Shown here piece by piece: positions 28,890 through 41,468 of a stretch of DNA of 64,000 nt (positions are counted from its first letter, which is position 1; each line of letters begins with the position of its first letter). The DNA is from Candidatus Sulfurimonas baltica. GTDB lineage: Bacteria; Campylobacterota; Campylobacteria; Campylobacterales; Sulfurimonadaceae. A program made the translations under genes and the position numbers. The notes beneath the pieces were generated by a model. It had not been told where the DNA came from. It searched no databases and worked only from the letters and a program-made list of their open reading frames with translations. The stretch covers positions 2,356,001 through 2,420,000 of the forward strand of contig NZ_CP054492.1 of NCBI RefSeq assembly GCF_015265455.1. The letters run 5' to 3'.

Positions 28890-29054
28890 GTTAAACTCCT
28901 ATAGTTGAAAGAGATGAAATGTTTTTATTTAAGGAATAGTATAGCATATAAATAATTGGCGTTATCGGTTATTAATTTAAGTTTGTAGCTTTATTGAGTT
29001 GGTTACAAAGTGATTATTTAAGGGATTTTATTAGGTTTATTAAAAGGTATTTTG

Positions 29055-29135
29055 TCAAGTTTCATCAACTTAAGTCAACTAATTTCAATAATGGTGGCGA
29101 ATTCGTCACCCCCCCCCCCCTTTTTTTTTGTCACC
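29055..29135 (+). promoter_or_regulatory. Module-1 palindromic control segment with C12T9 homopolymer tract
   Basis: Positions 29055-29110 match 30793-30848 upstream of the second ATPase at 54 of 56 bases. The segment ends in a dyad GGTGGCGAATTCGTCACC (29093-29110, one mismatch). In module 2 a further GTCACC half-site follows two turns later. Here the spacer before that half-site is replaced by 12 C and 9 T (29109-29129). Long C tracts of this kind are slippage-prone in Campylobacterota. The element may bind the integrase or a repressor (inference). Confidence 0.65.
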
Positions 29136-29213
29136 TAAATTATTCTATAATAATTCGTAGAATATTTCACAACAACACAAATCTAGTAGTATAAAACTTT
29201 ATTTATTGCTTTA

Positions 29214-29246
29214 GTAGGTATTTGATTACCTACTTTGTGCTATAAT
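29214..29246 (+). promoter_or_regulatory. Promoter and operator of ATPase gene 1
   Basis: A perfect 7-bp inverted repeat GTAGGTA-N6-TACCTAC (29214-29233) lies directly upstream of an extended -10 element TGCTATAAT (TATAAT at 29241-29246). Bound repressor would block the -35 region. The same half-sites recur at the promoter of the second ATPase. AGGA (29266-29269) serves the ATG at 29278. Confidence 0.6.
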
Positions 29247-29277
29247 AGCTTACATAACACTTAATAGGAAACAATAA

Positions 29278-30489
29278 ATGATATCAAAACTTAGCACAGA
29301 ATCAAAAAAGTTTCTTCAGAGGAACAACCTTCCTTATAAAAGGTATTTTATTAAAAATAAAAGTATTAAACACAGACTAACCATTATTACTGGTCAAAGA
29401 GGTATAGGTAAAACTACCACAATCGCTCAATATATGAAAGAAAATAGTGATAAAAAATCATTGTATGTAAGTATGGACAACTTCTTGATTGGAGAATTGT
29501 CAATGTATGAAATAGCAGAGCTTTTTGAGCAAGTTGGTGGTGAGTTACTGTGCTTTGATGAAATTCATAAATATTCAAATTGGTCACAAGAATTAAAAAG
29601 CATTTATGACAACTTCCCTAAACTACAAATAATAGCTTCTGGTAGTTCTACTCTTGAAATTAATAAAGGCAGTCATGATTTAAGCAGAAGAGCGCATGTT
29701 CTAAAAATGCACGGAATGAGCCTAAGAGAATATCTAGAACTAACACTTGATACAGAATTCTCGATACTAACAATTAAAGACATTTTGGAAAATCATGAAA
29801 AAATTGCATTTAATATATCTGAGCAATTTGAAAAACTCAACCAAAGAATACTACCGATTTTTAAAAGATATCTAAAAGTTGGATATTATCCTTACTCTCT
29901 TGATATAAATGACGATGATATCTTTATAGATATATTAAAACAAAATATTGATATATCTATATCTTATGACCTATTATCAGTCTATCCAAGCTTGGATGGG
30001 AACAGCATGAAAAAATTAAATTTACTTTTGAAAATTATTATGCAAAGCGTTCCTTTTGTACCAGTTATTGAGAGGCTGAAAAGTTCTTTAGAGATTGGAG
30101 ATGGTCGTACCATCAAAGAATATTTTATCAAATTAGAAGATGCAGGAATTATTAAACTTTTAATGAGCTCATCTTCAAAAGGTTTACAACAGCTGGAAAA
30201 GCCAGAAAAGATATACCTTGATAATACCAACCTACTTAATATTGCTAACAGTAATATAGGAACAGAACGGGAAACATTTTTTCTAAATGCAACAGCACAA
30301 ATACACAATGTAACTTATCCAAAAAAAGGTGACTTTCTTATAGATAATAATTTTTTGTTTGAAGTCGGAGGCAGGAATAAAGGTTTTAATCAAATTAAAG
30401 ACATTCATAATAGTTTTATTGCATGTGATGATCTTGAAATAGGATATGGAAATAAAATTCCGCTTTGGCTATTTGGATTCTTATACTAA
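29278..30489 (+). CDS. AAA_14/DUF4143-type ATPase, module 1
   Basis: 403 residues. An AAA core has Walker A GQRGIGKTTT (about 38-47), Walker B LLCFDEIH and a sensor-1 like IIASGSST. A helical/winged-helix middle follows, then a C-terminal DUF4143-like end with DFLIDNNFLFEVGGRNK, which resembles a PD-(D/E)xK metal site (Asp...Glu...Lys). Such ATPases are frequent in mobile and defence contexts but poorly understood. It is followed at once by a remnant of an integrase start, and its last about 20 codons are almost identical in DNA to those of the second ATPase, although the bodies differ widely. A role with the integrase is inferred. Confidence 0.78.
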   Translation: MISKLSTESKKFLQRNNLPYKRYFIKNKSIKHRLTIITGQRGIGKTTTIAQYMKENSDKKSLYVSMDNFLIGELSMYEIAELFEQVGGELLCFDEIHKYSNWSQELKSIYDNFPKLQIIASGSSTLEINKGSHDLSRRAHVLKMHGMSLREYLELTLDTEFSILTIKDILENHEKIAFNISEQFEKLNQRILPIFKRYLKVGYYPYSLDINDDDIFIDILKQNIDISISYDLLSVYPSLDGNSMKKLNLLLKIIMQSVPFVPVIERLKSSLEIGDGRTIKEYFIKLEDAGIIKLLMSSSSKGLQQLEKPEKIYLDNTNLLNIANSNIGTERETFFLNATAQIHNVTYPKKGDFLIDNNFLFEVGGRNKGFNQIKDIHNSFIACDDLEIGYGNKIPLWLFGFLY

Positions 30490-30499
30490 GGGGCGTTAA

Positions 30500-30541
30500 T
30501 TGGCAACATACATAAGCTCAAAAAAATATCCAGGAGTTTAA
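30500..30541 (+). pseudogene. Integrase remnant (13 codons) of module 1
   Basis: The TTG start and first 13 codons (MATYISSKKYPGV) of the integrase gene at 32211 are repeated here, followed by a TAA stop. Positions 30463-30531 are identical to 32174-32242 over 69 bases. The rest of the integrase is missing, so this is the stump left by an internal deletion. Confidence 0.8.
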
Positions 30542-30792
30542 CTAGGTGTTGCACTTACTATTTGAATTGGCGTACTATATTTGATAATCTAGTTTAATAA
30601 ACTAGAACAATATTGGTACAGTTTTGGAACAATTAGTTTTAAAGTCTTTGAAGGTGTCATATTTTAGGGGATTCTAAAAGAGTGGTGCGGATGAGAGGAC
30701 TTGAAAAAAGATGTTTTATCAAGTTTCTTAAAGTATTATCAATTATCTTCAAATATCCCCAGTATAACGGTTTTATATAGGTATTGATTTTA
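30542..30792. other. Attachment-like region between the two modules
   Basis: No gene is seen. The stretch holds a 17-bp palindrome CTAGTTTAATAAACTAG (30589-30605). Two direct heptamers TTGGTAC (30613-30619) and TTGGAAC (30624-30630) resemble integrase arm-type sites. A tRNA 3'-end fragment (30683-30705) is also present. Together these look like an integrated element's attP/att boundary (inference). Confidence 0.5.
30683..30705 (-). other. tRNA 3'-end fragment (candidate att site)
   Basis: On the minus strand TTCAAGTCCTCTCATCCGCA plus CCA reads as a T-loop TTCAAGT, T-stem half CCTCT, acceptor half CATCCGC, discriminator A and encoded CCA. The T-stem 5' half and the rest of the tRNA are absent, so this is not a functional tRNA. 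Acceptor CATCCGC with this T-arm fits a tRNA-Leu, but identity is uncertain. Such fragments mark the far end of elements integrated in tRNA genes. Confidence 0.65.
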
Positions 30793-30860
30793 TCAAGTTT
30801 CATCAACTAAAGTCAACTAATTTCAATAATGGTGACGAATTCGTCACCACATTCGTCACC
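30793..30860 (+). promoter_or_regulatory. Module-2 palindromic control segment
   Basis: The counterpart of 29055-29110. It contains a perfect 18-bp palindrome GGTGACGAATTCGTCACC (30831-30848). Two bases later comes a third half-site ATTCGTCACC (30851-30860), so the sites are spaced like a multimeric binding array. It lies about 120 bp upstream of the ATPase start and well upstream of its promoter, which suggests recombination directionality or a distal repressor site. Confidence 0.65.
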
Positions 30861-30907
30861 TAAATATGATATAATCACTTTATTAAAAATAACATATTTA
30901 CTGTTAA

Positions 30908-30949
30908 TAGGTATATTCGATTGACAATTTACCTACTTTATGTTAATCT
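30908..30949 (+). promoter_or_regulatory. Promoter and operator of ATPase gene 2
   Basis: TTGACA (30921-30926), 17 bp, then TAATCT (30944-30949) form a standard promoter. The -35 box lies inside a split dyad TAGGTA (30908-30913) and TACCTA (30930-30935). These are the same half-sites as at the first ATPase, but 16 bp apart instead of 6-8. Confidence 0.55.
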
Positions 30950-30979
30950 TACTTTACATATATCCAAAAGGATGACACT

Positions 30980-32200
30980 TTGAGTTTACAACGAATGTTT
31001 GAAGACCAAGAAAAGCTACTAACAAAAGTTTCTCTTGATAAAAAAAGATACTTATACAATGAGATCAACTGGGATTTAAAATCTATAGGTATTTTAGGTC
31101 AAAGAGGTCTTGGTAAGACGACAATGATGCTTCAATATATCAAAGAGAATTTTAAAAACTCTAAAAATGCATTATATATCTCCTTAGACACACCATATAT
31201 GCAATCGGTTTTACTTATTGAGTTTGCCAGAGAGTTTGAACAAAACGGCGGTGAAGTTCTTTTTATAGATGAAGTACATAAATATAATGACTGGGCTAAC
31301 CATATTAAAAATATATATGACTCTTTGGATATAAAAGTTGTTTTTTCAGGATCATCCATTTTACAAATTTCAAAACAAAATGCTGATCTTTCTCGTAGAA
31401 CTATTATTTATCATCTTGAAAACTTATCTTTTAGAGAATATCTAGAACTTACCGATATTGAGAAGTTTGAATCATATAAACTAGATGATATCTTAATAAA
31501 GCATGAAACAATTGCCAGTGATATAAGTAAAAAAATAAAACCGCTAATGCACTTTAAAGAGTATCTTATATACGGAGCATACCCTTTTATACTTGATGAT
31601 AAAGACACATACCATCAAAGAATAATACAGATGATAAATACTATTTTAGAGACTGATTTGCCATATATAAACAAAATAGAAATGACACAGATTACTAAAC
31701 TAAAAAAACTTCTTTATATGCTTGCCGTAAATGTACCTTTCATACCAAATATAACCGACCTATCAAATGCAACTAACATATCACGTCCAAAAGTGTATGA
31801 GTATTTAGAACATTTAGAGTCTGCCAAAATTATCAATAGCATAGTTAGTCAAGCAAAAGGGTATAAAATAATGACGAAACCAGAAAAGCTTTTTATGCAA
31901 AACACCAATATATCTTATGCTCTGACATCAAATATAAATATGGGAAGCGCAAGAGAATCATTCTTTGTAAATCAGATAAAAAACGGTTCTAACTCTCAAT
32001 TAAAACTATATGATGACACAATATTTAGTTCAAAAAACGGCGACTTCCTTGTAGAAAGCAAATACACATTTGAAGTAGGCGGAAAGAATAAAGACTTCAA
32101 TCAGATAAAAGATATTCCAAACTCATATATAGCTTCTGATGACATAGAGATAGGTTATGGAAATAAAATTCCTCTTTGGCTATTTGGATTCTTATACTAA
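30980..32200 (+). CDS. AAA_14/DUF4143-type ATPase, module 2
   Basis: 406 residues, paralogous to the module-1 ATPase. Walker A is GQRGLGKTTM, Walker B LFIDEVHKY, the sensor FSGSSIL, and the C-terminal metal-site-like run DFLVESKYTFEVGGKNK. The start is TTG 30980, with AAGGA seven bases before it; no nearer ATG fits. The stop is followed after ten bases by the integrase TTG, and the AAGGGG ribosome site of the integrase begins inside the ATPase stop codon, so expression is coupled. The protein may license or power the integrase, or act in element defence; the sequence does not decide. Confidence 0.78.
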   Translation: MSLQRMFEDQEKLLTKVSLDKKRYLYNEINWDLKSIGILGQRGLGKTTMMLQYIKENFKNSKNALYISLDTPYMQSVLLIEFAREFEQNGGEVLFIDEVHKYNDWANHIKNIYDSLDIKVVFSGSSILQISKQNADLSRRTIIYHLENLSFREYLELTDIEKFESYKLDDILIKHETIASDISKKIKPLMHFKEYLIYGAYPFILDDKDTYHQRIIQMINTILETDLPYINKIEMTQITKLKKLLYMLAVNVPFIPNITDLSNATNISRPKVYEYLEHLESAKIINSIVSQAKGYKIMTKPEKLFMQNTNISYALTSNINMGSARESFFVNQIKNGSNSQLKLYDDTIFSSKNGDFLVESKYTFEVGGKNKDFNQIKDIPNSYIASDDIEIGYGNKIPLWLFGFLY

Positions 32201-32210
32201 GGGGCGTTAA

Positions 32211-33344
32211 TTGGCAACATACATAAGCTCAAAAAAATATCCTGGTGTTCAGTACTATATCAAAGATAATGGAGTCAAGTCATATTCCATTAGATATAAA
32301 GATGAAAGTGGAAAATTAAAAAGAGTACAAGTTGGTGATGAGTCTGATGGAACCACTGAGGTTTACTGTAAAAACAAACGCATAGAGATATTAAATGCTC
32401 AAAATAAAGGTGAACAACCGCCTAAAATTGTAAAGAATCATCGCAAAAAAATTATTACGCTTGATGATGTTGCAGATAAATACTTTTCATCAATGGATAA
32501 TACTACAAGCACACATGAAAGACTAAGTAAATACAATAAACATTTATCTGAGCAATTTGGAAGACACTCAATAACAAATATTAAAAAAACTGACTTAGAG
32601 GACTTACAAAAAAGTATAATAGATGATAAAAAGCTAAGTAAAAAAACTGCTAATATGATTCTTGAGCTTTTTAGCACAATATTTAGATTTGGATTTAATG
32701 AAGAGCTTTATGAAGCAGTAAATCCAGCAATGAAAGTTAAAAGATTTAAGGTGAAGAACACTAGAGAAAGGTTTTTAAGAGTATCTGAAATTGAAGAACT
32801 GTATAAGCAGGCTATATTAAAAGATGAAGAAAAAGATCACGGAGATCTACTAGAGGTTTTCGTCAAACTAGCTTTAACAACTGGTGCTAGATTAGAGGGT
32901 ATATTAAATATTAAAAAGCGGGATATTGATTTAGAAAGTGATATTATACGCATAACTGACTTTAAAAATGGAGGTGAAATTTATAGTGGATATGTAACAA
33001 AAACAACTAGAGATTTGTTAACTAATAAATTAAACCTTTTAAACTATAATGACAACTTAGTCTCATTTAACAATGATGGAAAACAAATTAGTGCTAGACA
33101 AATACAAACTAGATTAAAACCAATACTGGATGATTTGTTTAATGTTGGCCTTGACACAAAAGATAGAGCAAATAGAATAGTAATTCATTCCCTTAGACAT
33201 ACTTTCGCTTCACAACTAGCAATTTCCAATGTGCCTATTAGACAGATCCAAGAGCTTATGAATCACGCAGATATAAGAGAAACAATGAAGTATGCTAAAC
33301 TACAAGATGATGCTAATAAGAAAGCAGCTCAGAGTGTTTTTTAA
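32211..33344 (+). CDS. Tyrosine recombinase/integrase
   Basis: 377 residues. An N-terminal arm-binding-like beta domain (1-60) precedes a SAM-like core-binding domain (about 80-175) and a catalytic domain with the full set Arg227 (TTGARLEG), His326-x-x-Arg329 (HSLRH), His352 (LMNHAD) and nucleophile Tyr361. It starts with TTG, with AAGGGG at optimal spacing. It is the only intact integrase in the region and the likely agent of the tRNA-associated integration. It has no excisionase neighbour. Confidence 0.9.
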   Translation: MATYISSKKYPGVQYYIKDNGVKSYSIRYKDESGKLKRVQVGDESDGTTEVYCKNKRIEILNAQNKGEQPPKIVKNHRKKIITLDDVADKYFSSMDNTTSTHERLSKYNKHLSEQFGRHSITNIKKTDLEDLQKSIIDDKKLSKKTANMILELFSTIFRFGFNEELYEAVNPAMKVKRFKVKNTRERFLRVSEIEELYKQAILKDEEKDHGDLLEVFVKLALTTGARLEGILNIKKRDIDLESDIIRITDFKNGGEIYSGYVTKTTRDLLTNKLNLLNYNDNLVSFNNDGKQISARQIQTRLKPILDDLFNVGLDTKDRANRIVIHSLRHTFASQLAISNVPIRQIQELMNHADIRETMKYAKLQDDANKKAAQSVF

Positions 33345-34484: not shown

Positions 34485-34652
34485 TTTATTTCCTTTGATT
34501 TTTAATTTAAGTAAATTTTTGTTTATGGAACAATATTTACCCAACCCTCTTTAACACGCTCTATGGAATGTCCCCTATAAACTAGACAAACTTTAATTCA
34601 GTAATTTAGATAAAATAATGCTAAAGCATTATGAAATTTAATAGGGTTAAAA

Positions 34653-34937
34653 ATGGCAAGAATAATTTATAGCGAAGAGTTTAGAATAGAGGCAGTAAAA
34701 CAAGTTACCGACAATGGTTACAGTATTACAGATACGGCGCAGAGACTTGGAATTCATCCAACTTCTTTAAGTGGATGGATTAAGAGATTAGAATCCCCAG
34801 AAGCTATAGAAAAGAATAAAATATCAGATGCTTCAAACGCGGAGATAAAGAAACTCCAGAAGGAACTTAAGAGAGTTACAGAAGAGAGGGACATCCTAAA
34901 AAAGGCCGCGGTGTACTTTGCAAGCCACACAAGTTAA
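34653..34937 (+). CDS. IS3-family transposase OrfA
   Basis: 94 residues with a helix-turn-helix (FRIEAVKQV...TDTAQRLGIHPTSLSGWI) and a leucine-zipper-like tail. The heptamer A-AAA-AAG lies in frame at 34898-34904. A -1 slip there joins OrfA directly to an open OrfB frame reading KYSFIKEHSQFYTVHRLCKV before the OrfB ATG. The full transposase is therefore probably the OrfAB fusion made by programmed frameshifting, as is usual for IS3 elements. Confidence 0.9.
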   Translation: MARIIYSEEFRIEAVKQVTDNGYSITDTAQRLGIHPTSLSGWIKRLESPEAIEKNKISDASNAEIKKLQKELKRVTEERDILKKAAVYFASHTS

Positions 34938-34996
34938 AATACTCTTTTATCAAAGAGCATAGTCAATTTTACACAGTTCATAGACTGTGTAAAGTT

Positions 34997-35809
34997 ATGC
35001 AAGTACACCGTAGCGGATACTATCAGTGGCTTAATCAACCTATATCCAATAGAGAACTTGAAAATCAAGAATTGCTCATTCAAATAAAAGAGGCTTATCG
35101 AGATTCAAAGGGTGTATATGGTCATAGAAATATTCATAAGGATTTAAAGGAACTCGGCATCCATGTCAATAAAAAAAGAGTAGCTAGACTTATGAGCGAA
35201 GCCAAACTCTATGGTGTTGGCACTTATAAACGCAAGCCTTACTCTAAAGCTGGTCCAGTTCATAAAGCACATCCAAATCATCTGCATCAATGTTTTATAG
35301 CAGGAAAGCCAAATGACACATGGGTTAGTGATATAACTTATACTAGAACTAAAGAGGGATGGATATTCTTAGCGACTGTTATAGATTTATATAGTAGAAA
35401 AATTATTGGCTGGGCAACAGGACATAGACAGACAACACCTTTAATTATAAATGCTCTCAAAATGGCAGTTGCAAGACTTAACAAGGACGACAATGTAATT
35501 CTTCACTCAGATCAAGGAAGTCAATACAGCGCCTATGAGTATAAAACATTTGCAAAAAAGAATAATATCACTCTTAGCATGAGCAGACGAGGCAACTGTT
35601 ATGATAATGCTGTTGCAGAGAGCTTCTTCAAAACTATAAAAAAAGAGCTTGTCAGAAAACAGATATTTTTAACGAGAAAAATTGCAGCCTCTAAAATATT
35701 TGAATATATAGAAATGTTCTACAACTCAAAAAGAAGACATAGTTATTTAGATTATATTTCACCAAATGAGTTTGAAAAAAGATACAATATGGAGTCTTCA
35801 AATATATAG
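34997..35809 (+). CDS. IS3-family transposase OrfB (catalytic part)
   Basis: 270 residues from the internal ATG. The DDE triad is intact: Asp in DTWVSDITY, Asp in ILHSDQGSQY and Glu in NAVAESFFKTIKKE. The N-terminal HTH_21 region and C-terminal RRHSYLDYISPNEFE are typical. The biologically active product should include the upstream frame reached by frameshifting at 34898-34904. Nothing suggests inactivation. Confidence 0.92.
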   Translation: MQVHRSGYYQWLNQPISNRELENQELLIQIKEAYRDSKGVYGHRNIHKDLKELGIHVNKKRVARLMSEAKLYGVGTYKRKPYSKAGPVHKAHPNHLHQCFIAGKPNDTWVSDITYTRTKEGWIFLATVIDLYSRKIIGWATGHRQTTPLIINALKMAVARLNKDDNVILHSDQGSQYSAYEYKTFAKKNNITLSMSRRGNCYDNAVAESFFKTIKKELVRKQIFLTRKIAASKIFEYIEMFYNSKRRHSYLDYISPNEFEKRYNMESSNI

Positions 35810-35855
35810 GTTTTTACTGGGTTAGTAATTGTCTAGTTTATAGGGGACATTCCAT

Positions 35856-37882: not shown

Positions 37883-38881
37883 GTGTCAAATTGTATCGGA
37901 ATTGATGTATCAAAAGCAAGTATAAATATTCATATAGCAAAGAATAAGCAGGATTTAGTTTTAGAGAATAGCATTAAAGGTTTCAGGTCTCTTATCTCTA
38001 AATTAAAAAAAATATATAAAAAAGAGATGGAGAATATTGTCTTTATTTTTGAGCCAACAGGTAGTTATTCTGAAGCACTTAGAAAATATTCTTCAGAACA
38101 AAATATCAAGTGTTTTATCATAAATCCTAAGCAGTTTAGTAATTATGCTAAAGCATTGGGAGTGGAAGTAAAAAATGATATTGAAGATGCTAGAGTTCTT
38201 TCAAAAGCTCTTCATTTAGCTAAAGATAATCAGATCAAGGTTCCTGTATATAACGAAGATATAGAACATATTAAGGAGTTGATGAGTTTTTATAAATTCA
38301 CGAAAAAACAAACAACACAACAGAAGAATCATCTTGAAGCATTGACAAGTAAAGATGGTGATAACTTCTCAATTAAAGAACTTAAAAAGTCTATCAAAGA
38401 ATCGAAAGAAAAAGAGCTTAGAATTATTGAACAAGTACAAACTTTAATTGATTCTACGGATGAATATAAAATTGCATATGACAATATTATATCAATAAAA
38501 GGAGTTGGTCAAATTGGTGCCATTGTACTTTTACATCTCTTTTTAAAATACCCAGAAGCTAATCAAAGGCAGATTACCTCGTTAACAGGTCTAAATCCAA
38601 TTTATAGACAATCCGGTACATCAATTCAATCAGGTTATAAAATAGCAAAGTCAGGCGCAAGTCTATATAGAAGTGTGATTTTTATGTCAGTTCTTACTGC
38701 TGTACAACATGATAAAAATTTTAAAAGTTTTTATGAGAGATTGAAATCTAAAGGAAAACATACAACATCTGCTCAAATTGCTGTCATGCGAAAAATAATA
38801 CTTACTGCACATTCTCTTTATAAAAATAATAGAAAATATAATGAAAATTATAATACTCATGAAGCTTCTGATATGGAATAA
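37883..38881 (+). CDS. IS110-family recombinase (copy A)
   Basis: 332 residues. The RuvC-like DEDD residues are Asp8 (GIDVSK), Glu57 (FEPTG), Asp99 and Asp102 (NDIEDARVL). Their spacing is the same as in well-characterised IS110 enzymes. A coiled-coil middle (about 125-195) follows, then the Tnp domain with GVGQIGA and the catalytic serine region YRQSGTS (about 241-247). It starts with GTG and AGGAGG six bases upstream. The enzyme is expected to cut and join DNA under the guidance of the adjacent RNA. Confidence 0.95.
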   Translation: MSNCIGIDVSKASINIHIAKNKQDLVLENSIKGFRSLISKLKKIYKKEMENIVFIFEPTGSYSEALRKYSSEQNIKCFIINPKQFSNYAKALGVEVKNDIEDARVLSKALHLAKDNQIKVPVYNEDIEHIKELMSFYKFTKKQTTQQKNHLEALTSKDGDNFSIKELKKSIKESKEKELRIIEQVQTLIDSTDEYKIAYDNIISIKGVGQIGAIVLLHLFLKYPEANQRQITSLTGLNPIYRQSGTSIQSGYKIAKSGASLYRSVIFMSVLTAVQHDKNFKSFYERLKSKGKHTTSAQIAVMRKIILTAHSLYKNNRKYNENYNTHEASDME

Positions 38882-39052
38882 AATTGAAGAGAATTGTTAC
38901 TATCGGTATCATTTTTAAAGGAAGTTAAACGTGGCGACTTTCGCACATAGATTTCACTAAATCCACGAACTTAATTTGAGTATTAAAGCCCATAAATAGC
39001 CACTTTTTAGTATAATTTTGTCACCACAACATCAAAAATACAAGGCTATTTT

Positions 39053-40426
39053 ATGGAACTTGACAATTATATACAAACTGCAGTGAGAAGCATATTAAAG
39101 AATCCAATACTTGAAGTGCTAACAGAGATAAAAATCACAAAAATACTTAAGCAGAGCAACTTCATTAAACGAAATGTTGGCTATCCACCATTTCAAATAA
39201 TATTACACTTCGTTTATATGTTAGTGATGCAAAAACGCCAGTCAACATTTATAAAAAAGAGCGATAGTGCATTTGGGAAAGATGCCTATTACAGATTTAT
39301 CAAAGATAGTCGTTACAACTGGCGAAAGTTTTTAATGCTAAGTACTACTGCACTTTTGCAAAGAATAAAACCACTACATAAAAATGGTGAACATCGCTTA
39401 CTCATTATTGACGATACAGTAGAGTCTAAGAGAGGTAAATACATTGAGGGAAGCTGTAAATATATTTGGAGCAATAAAGAACATAGGAGTATCAATGCGC
39501 TCAATATCGTATCTCTAAATTATGCAGATTCACATTCAACTTTTCAATTAGATTTTTCTATAAAAATGAATGGTAGCAATAGAAAAGATATTTCAGAGTT
39601 CACAAATAAGCTACATCACAGAAGTAATGCATATCAGAGAAAGAGTGAAATTACTAAAGGCAAAAATATACTAGCTATTGAGATGCTGCAAAGAGCTTTG
39701 GATAACGGTGTTGATGCAGATTACTTGCTCGTAGATAGCTGGTATGCTAAACCGAATTTCATACATCAAGCTAATGAACTTGGTATGCCAGTAATAGCAA
39801 GACTTCCAAACAATAAACTTATTTGGAACTTTAAAGGCAAACATAAAACTATGAATGCAATCTATGACAGTATGAAAAACTATCGTCACAAAAGTAGTGG
39901 TAAACATGGCAAAATATCGTACAAATATTTCGATGCCATTGTAGAACATGCAGTTTTAGGTAAAGTCAAGCTCGTATTTTTACACACAGGTAAAGAGTTG
40001 TTAGTTTTTATCTCAAGTGATATTACTATTGCAGGCAAAGAGATTCTAGCAACTTATAAAAAGAGATGGAATATTGAACAAGGCTATAAAGATCTCAGAA
40101 ACCTCTTCGGTTTTGGAAAAGAAGAAAATCGTATCTATGAATCACTAATTGCAAAAATAACACTATCTATGTTTGCATATAACATTGTAAGTTATATTAA
40201 CCGTATAAAGCATGAACCACAAACTCTTGGAGAACTCTTTAGAGATTTAGAATGTGAGCTTGAAACACTGGCAATATCAATGCAACTCTTTATTAAAATA
40301 CTGACAAAAATCTCTGAAATCCAAAATGTTGTCAAGGATAATAAAAATTTACTCAATATTATCGCTGTGCTCAGTGCTTATACTCAAAAAGAGTTAGGTT
40401 TTATGTGCGAAAGTCGCCACGTTTAA
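39053..40426 (+). CDS. IS4-like DDE transposase
   Basis: 457 residues as read. The DDE residues fit Asp in LLIIDDTVESKRG, Asp in YLLVDSWYAKP and Glu in YKKRWNIEQGYKDLR, the last being the YREK-type signature of IS4-related enzymes. The gene is intact. Because IS110 cuts the terminal repeat that overlaps its 3' end, the last residues change: the native reading would end ...FMCES, and here two extra residues (HV after SR) come from IS110 sequence. Its element's ends are both split, so it can probably no longer move itself. Confidence 0.85.
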   Translation: MELDNYIQTAVRSILKNPILEVLTEIKITKILKQSNFIKRNVGYPPFQIILHFVYMLVMQKRQSTFIKKSDSAFGKDAYYRFIKDSRYNWRKFLMLSTTALLQRIKPLHKNGEHRLLIIDDTVESKRGKYIEGSCKYIWSNKEHRSINALNIVSLNYADSHSTFQLDFSIKMNGSNRKDISEFTNKLHHRSNAYQRKSEITKGKNILAIEMLQRALDNGVDADYLLVDSWYAKPNFIHQANELGMPVIARLPNNKLIWNFKGKHKTMNAIYDSMKNYRHKSSGKHGKISYKYFDAIVEHAVLGKVKLVFLHTGKELLVFISSDITIAGKEILATYKKRWNIEQGYKDLRNLFGFGKEENRIYESLIAKITLSMFAYNIVSYINRIKHEPQTLGELFRDLECELETLAISMQLFIKILTKISEIQNVVKDNKNLLNIIAVLSAYTQKELGFMCESRHV

Positions 40427-40469
40427 CTTCCTTTAAAAATGATACCGATAGTAACAATTCTCTTCAATT

Positions 40470-41468
40470 TTATTCCATATCAGAAGCTTCATGAGTATTA
40501 TAATTTTCATTATATTTTCTATTATTTTTATAAAGAGAATGTGCAGTAAGTATTATTTTTCGCATGACAGCAATTTGAGCAGATGTTGTATGTTTTCCTT
40601 TAGATTTCAATCTCTCATAAAAACTTTTAAAATTTTTATCATGTTGTACAGCAGTAAGAACTGACATAAAAATCACACTTCTATATAGACTTGCGCCTGA
40701 CTTTGCTATTTTATAACCTGATTGAATTGATGTACCGGATTGTCTATAAATTGGATTTAGACCTGTTAACGAGGTAATCTGCCTTTGATTAGCTTCTGGG
40801 TATTTTAAAAAGAGATGTAAAAGTACAATGGCACCAATTTGACCAACTCCTTTTATTGATATAATATTGTCATATGCAATTTTATATTCATCCGTAGAAT
40901 CAATTAAAGTTTGTACTTGTTCAATAATTCTAAGCTCTTTTTCTTTCGATTCTTTGATAGACTTTTTAAGTTCTTTAATTGAGAAGTTATCACCATCTTT
41001 ACTTGTCAATGCTTCAAGATGATTCTTCTGTTGTGTTGTTTGTTTTTTCGTGAATTTATAAAAACTCATCAACTCCTTAATATGTTCTATATCTTCGTTA
41101 TATACAGGAACCTTGATCTGATTATCTTTAGCTAAATGAAGAGCTTTTGAAAGAACTCTAGCATCTTCAATATCATTTTTTACTTCCACTCCCAATGCTT
41201 TAGCATAATTACTAAACTGCTTAGGATTTATGATAAAACACTTGATATTTTGTTCTGAAGAATATTTTCTAAGTGCTTCAGAATAACTACCTGTTGGCTC
41301 AAAAATAAAGACAATATTCTCCATCTCTTTTTTATATATTTTTTTTAATTTAGAGATAAGAGACCTGAAACCTTTAATGCTATTCTCTAAAACTAAATCC
41401 TGCTTATTCTTTGCTATATGAATATTTATACTTGCTTTTGATACATCAATTCCGATACAATTTGACAC
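40470..41468 (-). CDS. IS110-family recombinase (copy B)
   Basis: The same 332 residues as the copy at 37883-38881, including the DEDD and serine motifs and the GTG start. Identity implies either very recent transposition or repair of one copy from the other. Sequence between the copies differs, so this is not a simple assembly inversion artefact. Confidence 0.95.
   Translation of the reverse strand: MSNCIGIDVSKASINIHIAKNKQDLVLENSIKGFRSLISKLKKIYKKEMENIVFIFEPTGSYSEALRKYSSEQNIKCFIINPKQFSNYAKALGVEVKNDIEDARVLSKALHLAKDNQIKVPVYNEDIEHIKELMSFYKFTKKQTTQQKNHLEALTSKDGDNFSIKELKKSIKESKEKELRIIEQVQTLIDSTDEYKIAYDNIISIKGVGQIGAIVLLHLFLKYPEANQRQITSLTGLNPIYRQSGTSIQSGYKIAKSGASLYRSVIFMSVLTAVQHDKNFKSFYERLKSKGKHTTSAQIAVMRKIILTAHSLYKNNRKYNENYNTHEASDME

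Follow-up and report, generated by a model that had tools for sequence, protein, structure and literature searches.

Why should two ATPase genes, standing in tandem in Candidatus Sulfurimonas baltica, each be set between the same palindromic segment and the start of the same tyrosine integrase gene? The locus lies in a 64-kb stretch (the window, to which coordinates refer unless stated otherwise) of a 2.74-Mb genome assembled as a single contig. A sequence-only reading had proposed an integrase and a dedicated ATPase, moving together as a two-gene unit. Here, we propose a different answer, to which we give a probability of about 0.78: an integrative element targets the 3' end of tRNA-Leu(UAG), the module forms the distal (non-tRNA) end of that element, and the ATPase fills a single exchangeable passenger slot.

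Results

The two ATPases (403 and 406 amino acids; Table 1) are 41-43% identical, and both match Pfam AAA_14; ATPase 2 matches DUF4143 below threshold (26.8 bits against a cut-off of 28.1), and ATPase 1 has no reported DUF4143 match. The segments preceding them agree at 59 of 62 nucleotides (95%; 29049-29110 and 30787-30848) and contain the palindrome GGTGRCGAATTCGTCACC and a GTCACC half-site. Downstream of each ATPase lies TAAGGGGCGTTAA-TTG and a common integrase start (50 of 52 nucleotides, from the ATPase stop to codon 13), after which module 1 soon reaches a stop codon and module 2 continues into a complete integrase. All of this bears out the anatomy given by the sequence-only reading. 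Per 20 codons, the two ATPase genes agree at 40-72% of DNA positions, a figure that rises to 97% from the last 12 codons into the integrase start. High identity in the operator and across the ATPase end and integrase start, with low identity in the ATPase body, is the pattern that recombination in constant flanks would leave. We considered the 13-codon cut itself as a recombination boundary, an integrase in Sulfurimonas NORP87 being cut at about codon 15, but do not draw that conclusion from a mere two cases whose sequences differ past the cut. A Shine-Dalgarno-like AAGG overlaps the ATPase stop codon, as had been noted for the window, in both modules and in five other elements with an ATPase in the slot. 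Because the integrase ribosome site overlaps the slot-gene stop codon, the two genes are probably co-expressed.

The arrangement recurs in the genus. The operator pattern occurs at 11 sites in 10 of 135 congeneric genomes, against zero matches for a reversed control, which argues that its recurrence is not due to chance; the comparison genomes are species representatives, several of them drafts with short contigs, and the counts are small. Ten of the 11 sites belong to this element type, with module 1 counted as a remnant, and at the eleventh (genome G403) a left end in decay leads into a module 1-type ATPase and an integrase of another kind. Nine other genomes of the genus carry integrases 63-83% identical to that of the window. 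Ten left ends, module 1 included, align from the core through direct repeats, palindrome and half-site to a -10-like box, beyond which similarity is lost. The order of parts is constant: a 22-bp core from the tRNA-Leu 3' end, repeat-rich arm-like sequence, palindrome and half-site, TATAAT box, one slot and the tyrosine integrase. Covariation between the palindrome arms of different species (G-to-T with C-to-A) goes back to what is in essence a single evolutionary event, and we do not count it as evidence. Scans of viral contigs with the integrase and the ATPase returned no relatives; plasmid integrases reach only 26% identity among the matches listed, and the phage records for the ATPase are two weak ones. 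No description of the element was found in the open-access literature searched, most subscription journals lying outside its coverage.

The slot itself holds an ATPase in the window (twice), G221, G333, G339, G409 and G330 (whose left end is lost), a 526-residue HipA-like kinase (HipA_C) in G303 and G396, and nothing in G360 and G395. Besides the HipA-like kinases, a Fic protein and a Phd/YefM-like antitoxin are among the other slot or neighbouring genes. Between G303 and G339, left ends are 93.9% and integrase starts 92.7% identical, and the slot genes, HipA and ATPase, are unrelated. Between G303 and G396, the HipA genes are 95.6-96% identical, the left ends 85% and the integrase starts 74% (DNA). 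The integrases of the window and G333 are 83% identical and their ATPases 41%. On a 75-sequence ATPase tree, the slot ATPases need at least five state changes (at least five tree positions); ATPase 1 groups with those of G330, G409 and G403, and ATPase 2 with L033 and L032, in distant clades. At the level of sequence, these comparisons show a constant left end, a single protein-coding slot and then the integrase, with slot content that varies on the same backbone, and they indicate that slot and backbone have separate histories in a mosaic element.

Where does the element insert? Between the two modules lies TGGTGCGGATGAGAGGACTTGAA, the reverse complement of the tRNA-Leu 3' end. Since this core separates the modules, and the sequence to its left is similar to what lies 3' of the intact gene, an attachment site marks the exact start of module 2. 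The genome holds three copies of the core: in the intact tRNA-Leu(UAG) (contig positions 173133-173217), at 195 kb, and in the window. The window copy has no second core in direct orientation, and its orientation is opposite to that of the intact tRNA-Leu at 173 kb of the contig; upstream of module 1 there is no core within 3 mismatches, and no intact tRNA occurs in the 64-kb window. The suspected tRNA link therefore holds for the core but not for an intact tRNA gene at this position.

In other genomes, islands are bracketed by the core. In G396, the left core and the intact tRNA-Leu(UAG) form direct repeats that bracket 3.25 kb; in the complete genome G303, direct core repeats with the intact tRNA-Leu(UAG) at one end bracket 25.1 kb; and G221 has three cores, all in direct orientation, that are spread over 56 kb and end at the tRNA. 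Mobility, as first proposed, is supported for an integrase module with an attached ATPase, but islands of 3.25 to 25 kb are not strictly two-gene units. The proposal that the tandem arose by repeated integration at one site is likewise plausible, given the core exactly between the modules, but the present location is not the tRNA.

Other integrases also sit at the tRNA-Leu site, making it a shared hotspot. G403 carries another 4.3-kb element there (L223:837-5120), with a different integrase and other genes. Similar inverted-repeat sequence with GGTACCAAGTG lies near tRNA-Leu(UAG) in two species (L152:7520-7640 and L155:10410-10500), and an island beside tRNA-Leu in the S. baltica genome itself (L152:16946-16972) contains tandem, half-site-like CCGTCACC repeats. 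In Sulfurimonas NORP87 (L033:2736-4255), direct repeats of a tRNA-Met segment lie on either side of an ATPase 85% identical to ATPase 2 and some 15 integrase codons; tRNA-Leu is about 220 bp away.

The ATPase family extends well beyond the element. At E<=1e-30 it is found in 83 of 299 genomes of the order, and only a handful of copies adjoin an integrase; free relatives, up to 85% identical, occur without this integrase, and further relatives are carried on Arcobacter plasmids. In G202, G273 and G400, an integrase adjoins related ATPases in reverse gene order. The genome survey called for by the sequence-only reading thus gives a divided answer: the arrangement recurs with conserved spacing at the tRNA core, and its junction is not unique to this genome, but the ATPase mostly occurs without this integrase.

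ATPases 2 and 1 match the PADLOC model PDC-S01 with E=1e-30 and 3.4e-23, respectively (these models have no curated cut-off). PDC-S01 is a very common candidate defence family in which an ATPase is fused to a member of the PD-(D/E)XK group, with validation pending (PMC12988326). GxxGxGKT (Walker A) and DExH (Walker B) are invariant, as are C-terminal D355, E365, GG, K371 and Q375 across 26 sequences; both window ATPases keep all invariant motifs. Strong purifying selection is evident among the close relatives of both, and in the comparison of ATPase 1 with its G330 relative (pN 0.10, pS 0.72). A sequence search of solved structures found no match to the ATPase. An AlphaFold model of ATPase 2 (pLDDT, the predicted local distance difference test, 89.3) best matches SSO1545 (2fna; Z 15.0; residues 16-316; 257 aligned; root-mean-square deviation 3.9; 19% identity), leaving the C-terminal DUF4143-like part uncovered, and also matches 2qen (Z 14.7). 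CED-4 and plant NLRs are among the related folds listed, which is evidence of fold and not of function.

Table 1. Coordinates and features of the two modules in the window
Feature	Position	Strand	Basis or remark
Module 1 left-end remnant (arm-like repeat segment), tRNA core missing	29049..29088	+	95% identity to 30787-30848, 62 nt
Module 1 palindrome GGTGGCGAATTCGTCACC, operator-like, one mismatch	29093..29110		
Module 1 half-site GTCACC	29130..29135	+	C12T9 run between half-site and palindrome
ATPase 1, AAA_14/DUF4143 type	29278..30489	+	AAA_14 E=2.5e-27; frame open, all invariant motifs
Integrase remnant, TTG start, 13 codons and stop	30500..30541	+	
Segment resembling 3' flank of intact tRNA-Leu(UAG)	30638..30682	+	AAAGTCTTTGAA...TATTTTAGG common to flank at G000 173.2 kb
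Attachment core, tRNA-Leu(UAG) 3' end	30683..30705	-	Exact match, chance expectation 0
Left-end region, TCAAG/ATCAA direct repeats (arm-type-like sites)	30706..30830	+	Alignment of ten left ends
Module 2 palindrome GGTGACGAATTCGTCACC	30831..30848		
Module 2 half-site GTCACC, then TATAAT box	30855..30860	+	
ATPase 2 (slot gene), TTG start	30980..32200	+	AAA_14 E=4.5e-28; PADLOC PDC-S01 E=1e-30
Tyrosine integrase, TTG start, Shine-Dalgarno in ATPase stop codon	32211..33344	+	Phage_integrase E=1.4e-23

Several further features surround the modules. Homopolymer tracts can be phase-variable in Campylobacterota, and the C12T9 run before ATPase 1 (29109-29129) may be such a tract or a product of decay. 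The sequence GTGTTGCACTT...TTGAATTGGCG, 3' of the integrase stub (30537-30572), recurs near a cold-shock gene at 1.945 Mb (35 of 36 nucleotides) and 5' of an ATPase in G276 (L117 7398-7427). Insertion sequences occupy much of 34.5-41.5 kb: an IS3-type element with 42-bp terminal inverted repeats (86%) at 34563-35855, and two identical, inverted IS110-family transposase genes (37883-38881 and 40470-41468) flanking an IS4-like transposase gene (39053-40426). Relatives of the flanking tamA are 43-56% identical and stand without the window's neighbours; this comparison yielded no empty site.

Discussion

We propose that the integrase promoter, controlled by the palindromic operator, also drives the slot, and that the gene in it would be translated immediately ahead of the integrase and be a passenger, most likely one with a phage-defence or guard function. 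The window's ATPases would be PDC-S01-like STAND/AAA proteins with a nuclease-like C-terminal domain. The spread without the integrase suggests a passenger, and the PDC-S01 match suggests a defence or guard role, which the HipA-like and Fic genes that occupy or adjoin the slot would fit. Slot genes may be swapped by homologous recombination between the constant flanks while one tRNA harbours two elements in tandem. The window would then be a decaying tandem in which the left end of element 2, which is complete, abuts a decayed element 1 in which the operator and an intact ATPase persist but the core, a portion of the left arm and the integrase beyond 13 codons are gone. A later rearrangement, as the inverted orientation of the window core relative to the intact tRNA-Leu suggests, probably moved this end and separated element 2 from its right end; the IS110 pair at 37883-41468 is a candidate substrate for such an inversion.

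Several observations weigh against this model. No right end was found beside the window integrase and no tRNA-Leu in the window, leaving this copy unbracketed. Several elements are decayed, with a truncated integrase in G339 and G396 and a stop in G409, and some slot differences could reflect decay and not live exchange. G403 shows that operator and ATPase can be joined to a different integrase. Either a host factor or the integrase itself may recognise the palindrome, and PDC-S01 is itself only a candidate defence family.

More tentatively, and at somewhat less than even odds, we suggest that the slot is a dedicated cassette position in the integrase operon. A guard or defence gene between the palindromic operator and the integrase start would be expressed and silenced with the integrase, one operator would switch both defence and mobility, and tandem integration at the tRNA would supply partners for exchange.

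Among alternatives, the one that survives best sees the slot gene as stabilising the element, in the manner of an addiction (toxin-antitoxin-like) or guard module, and not as an anti-phage gene. The kinases, Fic protein and antitoxin found in or near the slot would suit such a role, as would the retention of the module 1 ATPase despite loss of its integrase; yet no partner antitoxin is encoded next to the ATPase, whose family is listed as a defence candidate. We regard this alternative as less likely than not, and the two roles are compatible.

Much less probable is that the ATPase serves the integrase, whether in target choice, immunity to re-insertion or element maintenance, as originally suggested, or in directionality; the pair would then be a dedicated two-gene recombination machine, comparable to some transposases with their TnsC/TniB-like ATPases. 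In seven ATPase-slot modules, adjacency and a ribosome site that overlaps the stop codon speak for this, as does the reverse-order pairing in G202, G273 and G400. However, relatives 63-70% identical use the same core and operator with an empty slot (G360, G395) or HipA (G303, G396), which suggests that the ATPase is not needed for target choice; an integrase 83% identical to that of the window is paired with an ATPase only 41% identical, and ATPase 1 remains intact though its integrase is lost. Least probable, by a small step, is a local duplication of one module with later divergence of the ATPases, in place of two integrations or recombination: the 95-97% identity of operator and integrase start would fit it, but the ATPases, at 43% identity, belong to distant clades of the tree, and the tRNA core lies between the modules.

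If the slot is exchanged as we propose, it offers a short, natural site, bounded by constant flanks, at which the exchange of cargo in mobile elements can be measured, and a guilt-by-location screen of its occupants should yield good defence and guard candidates, including the very common PDC-S01 ATPases. The locus also illustrates that two genes may be adjacent and translationally linked without acting together.

Compared with known systems, the element resembles other tRNA-targeting integrative elements in its core identical to a tRNA 3' end, its bracketing by direct repeats with an intact tRNA (G396, G303) and an integrase near one end, and differs in that the integrase module lies at the end away from the tRNA and that a single exchangeable gene separates the integrase promoter region from the integrase. 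P2-like phages and P4-like satellites carry variable defence hotspots (PMC9122126), which share with the slot a fixed position in a mobile element where defence or candidate genes vary between constant flanks; here, in contrast, that position lies within what is presumed to be the transcription unit of the integrase. Around the module, the window has no recognised phage or satellite structural genes, the PHROGs scan having covered only the ATPases and the integrase. The slot ATPases, known here from sequence, share with PDC-S01 an ATPase domain and perhaps a PD-(D/E)XK-like C-terminal part (hidden Markov model match 1e-30), and with the STAND-type ATPase SSO1545 (PDB 2fna) a predicted fold with Walker A and B, differing from the latter in their low identity (19%) and unmatched C-terminal part. 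Unlike recombinases with a dedicated TnsC/TniB-like ATPase, integrases of this type are not always accompanied by one. The element is otherwise of a known kind, and what appears new is an exchangeable cargo slot inside a presumed integrase operon.

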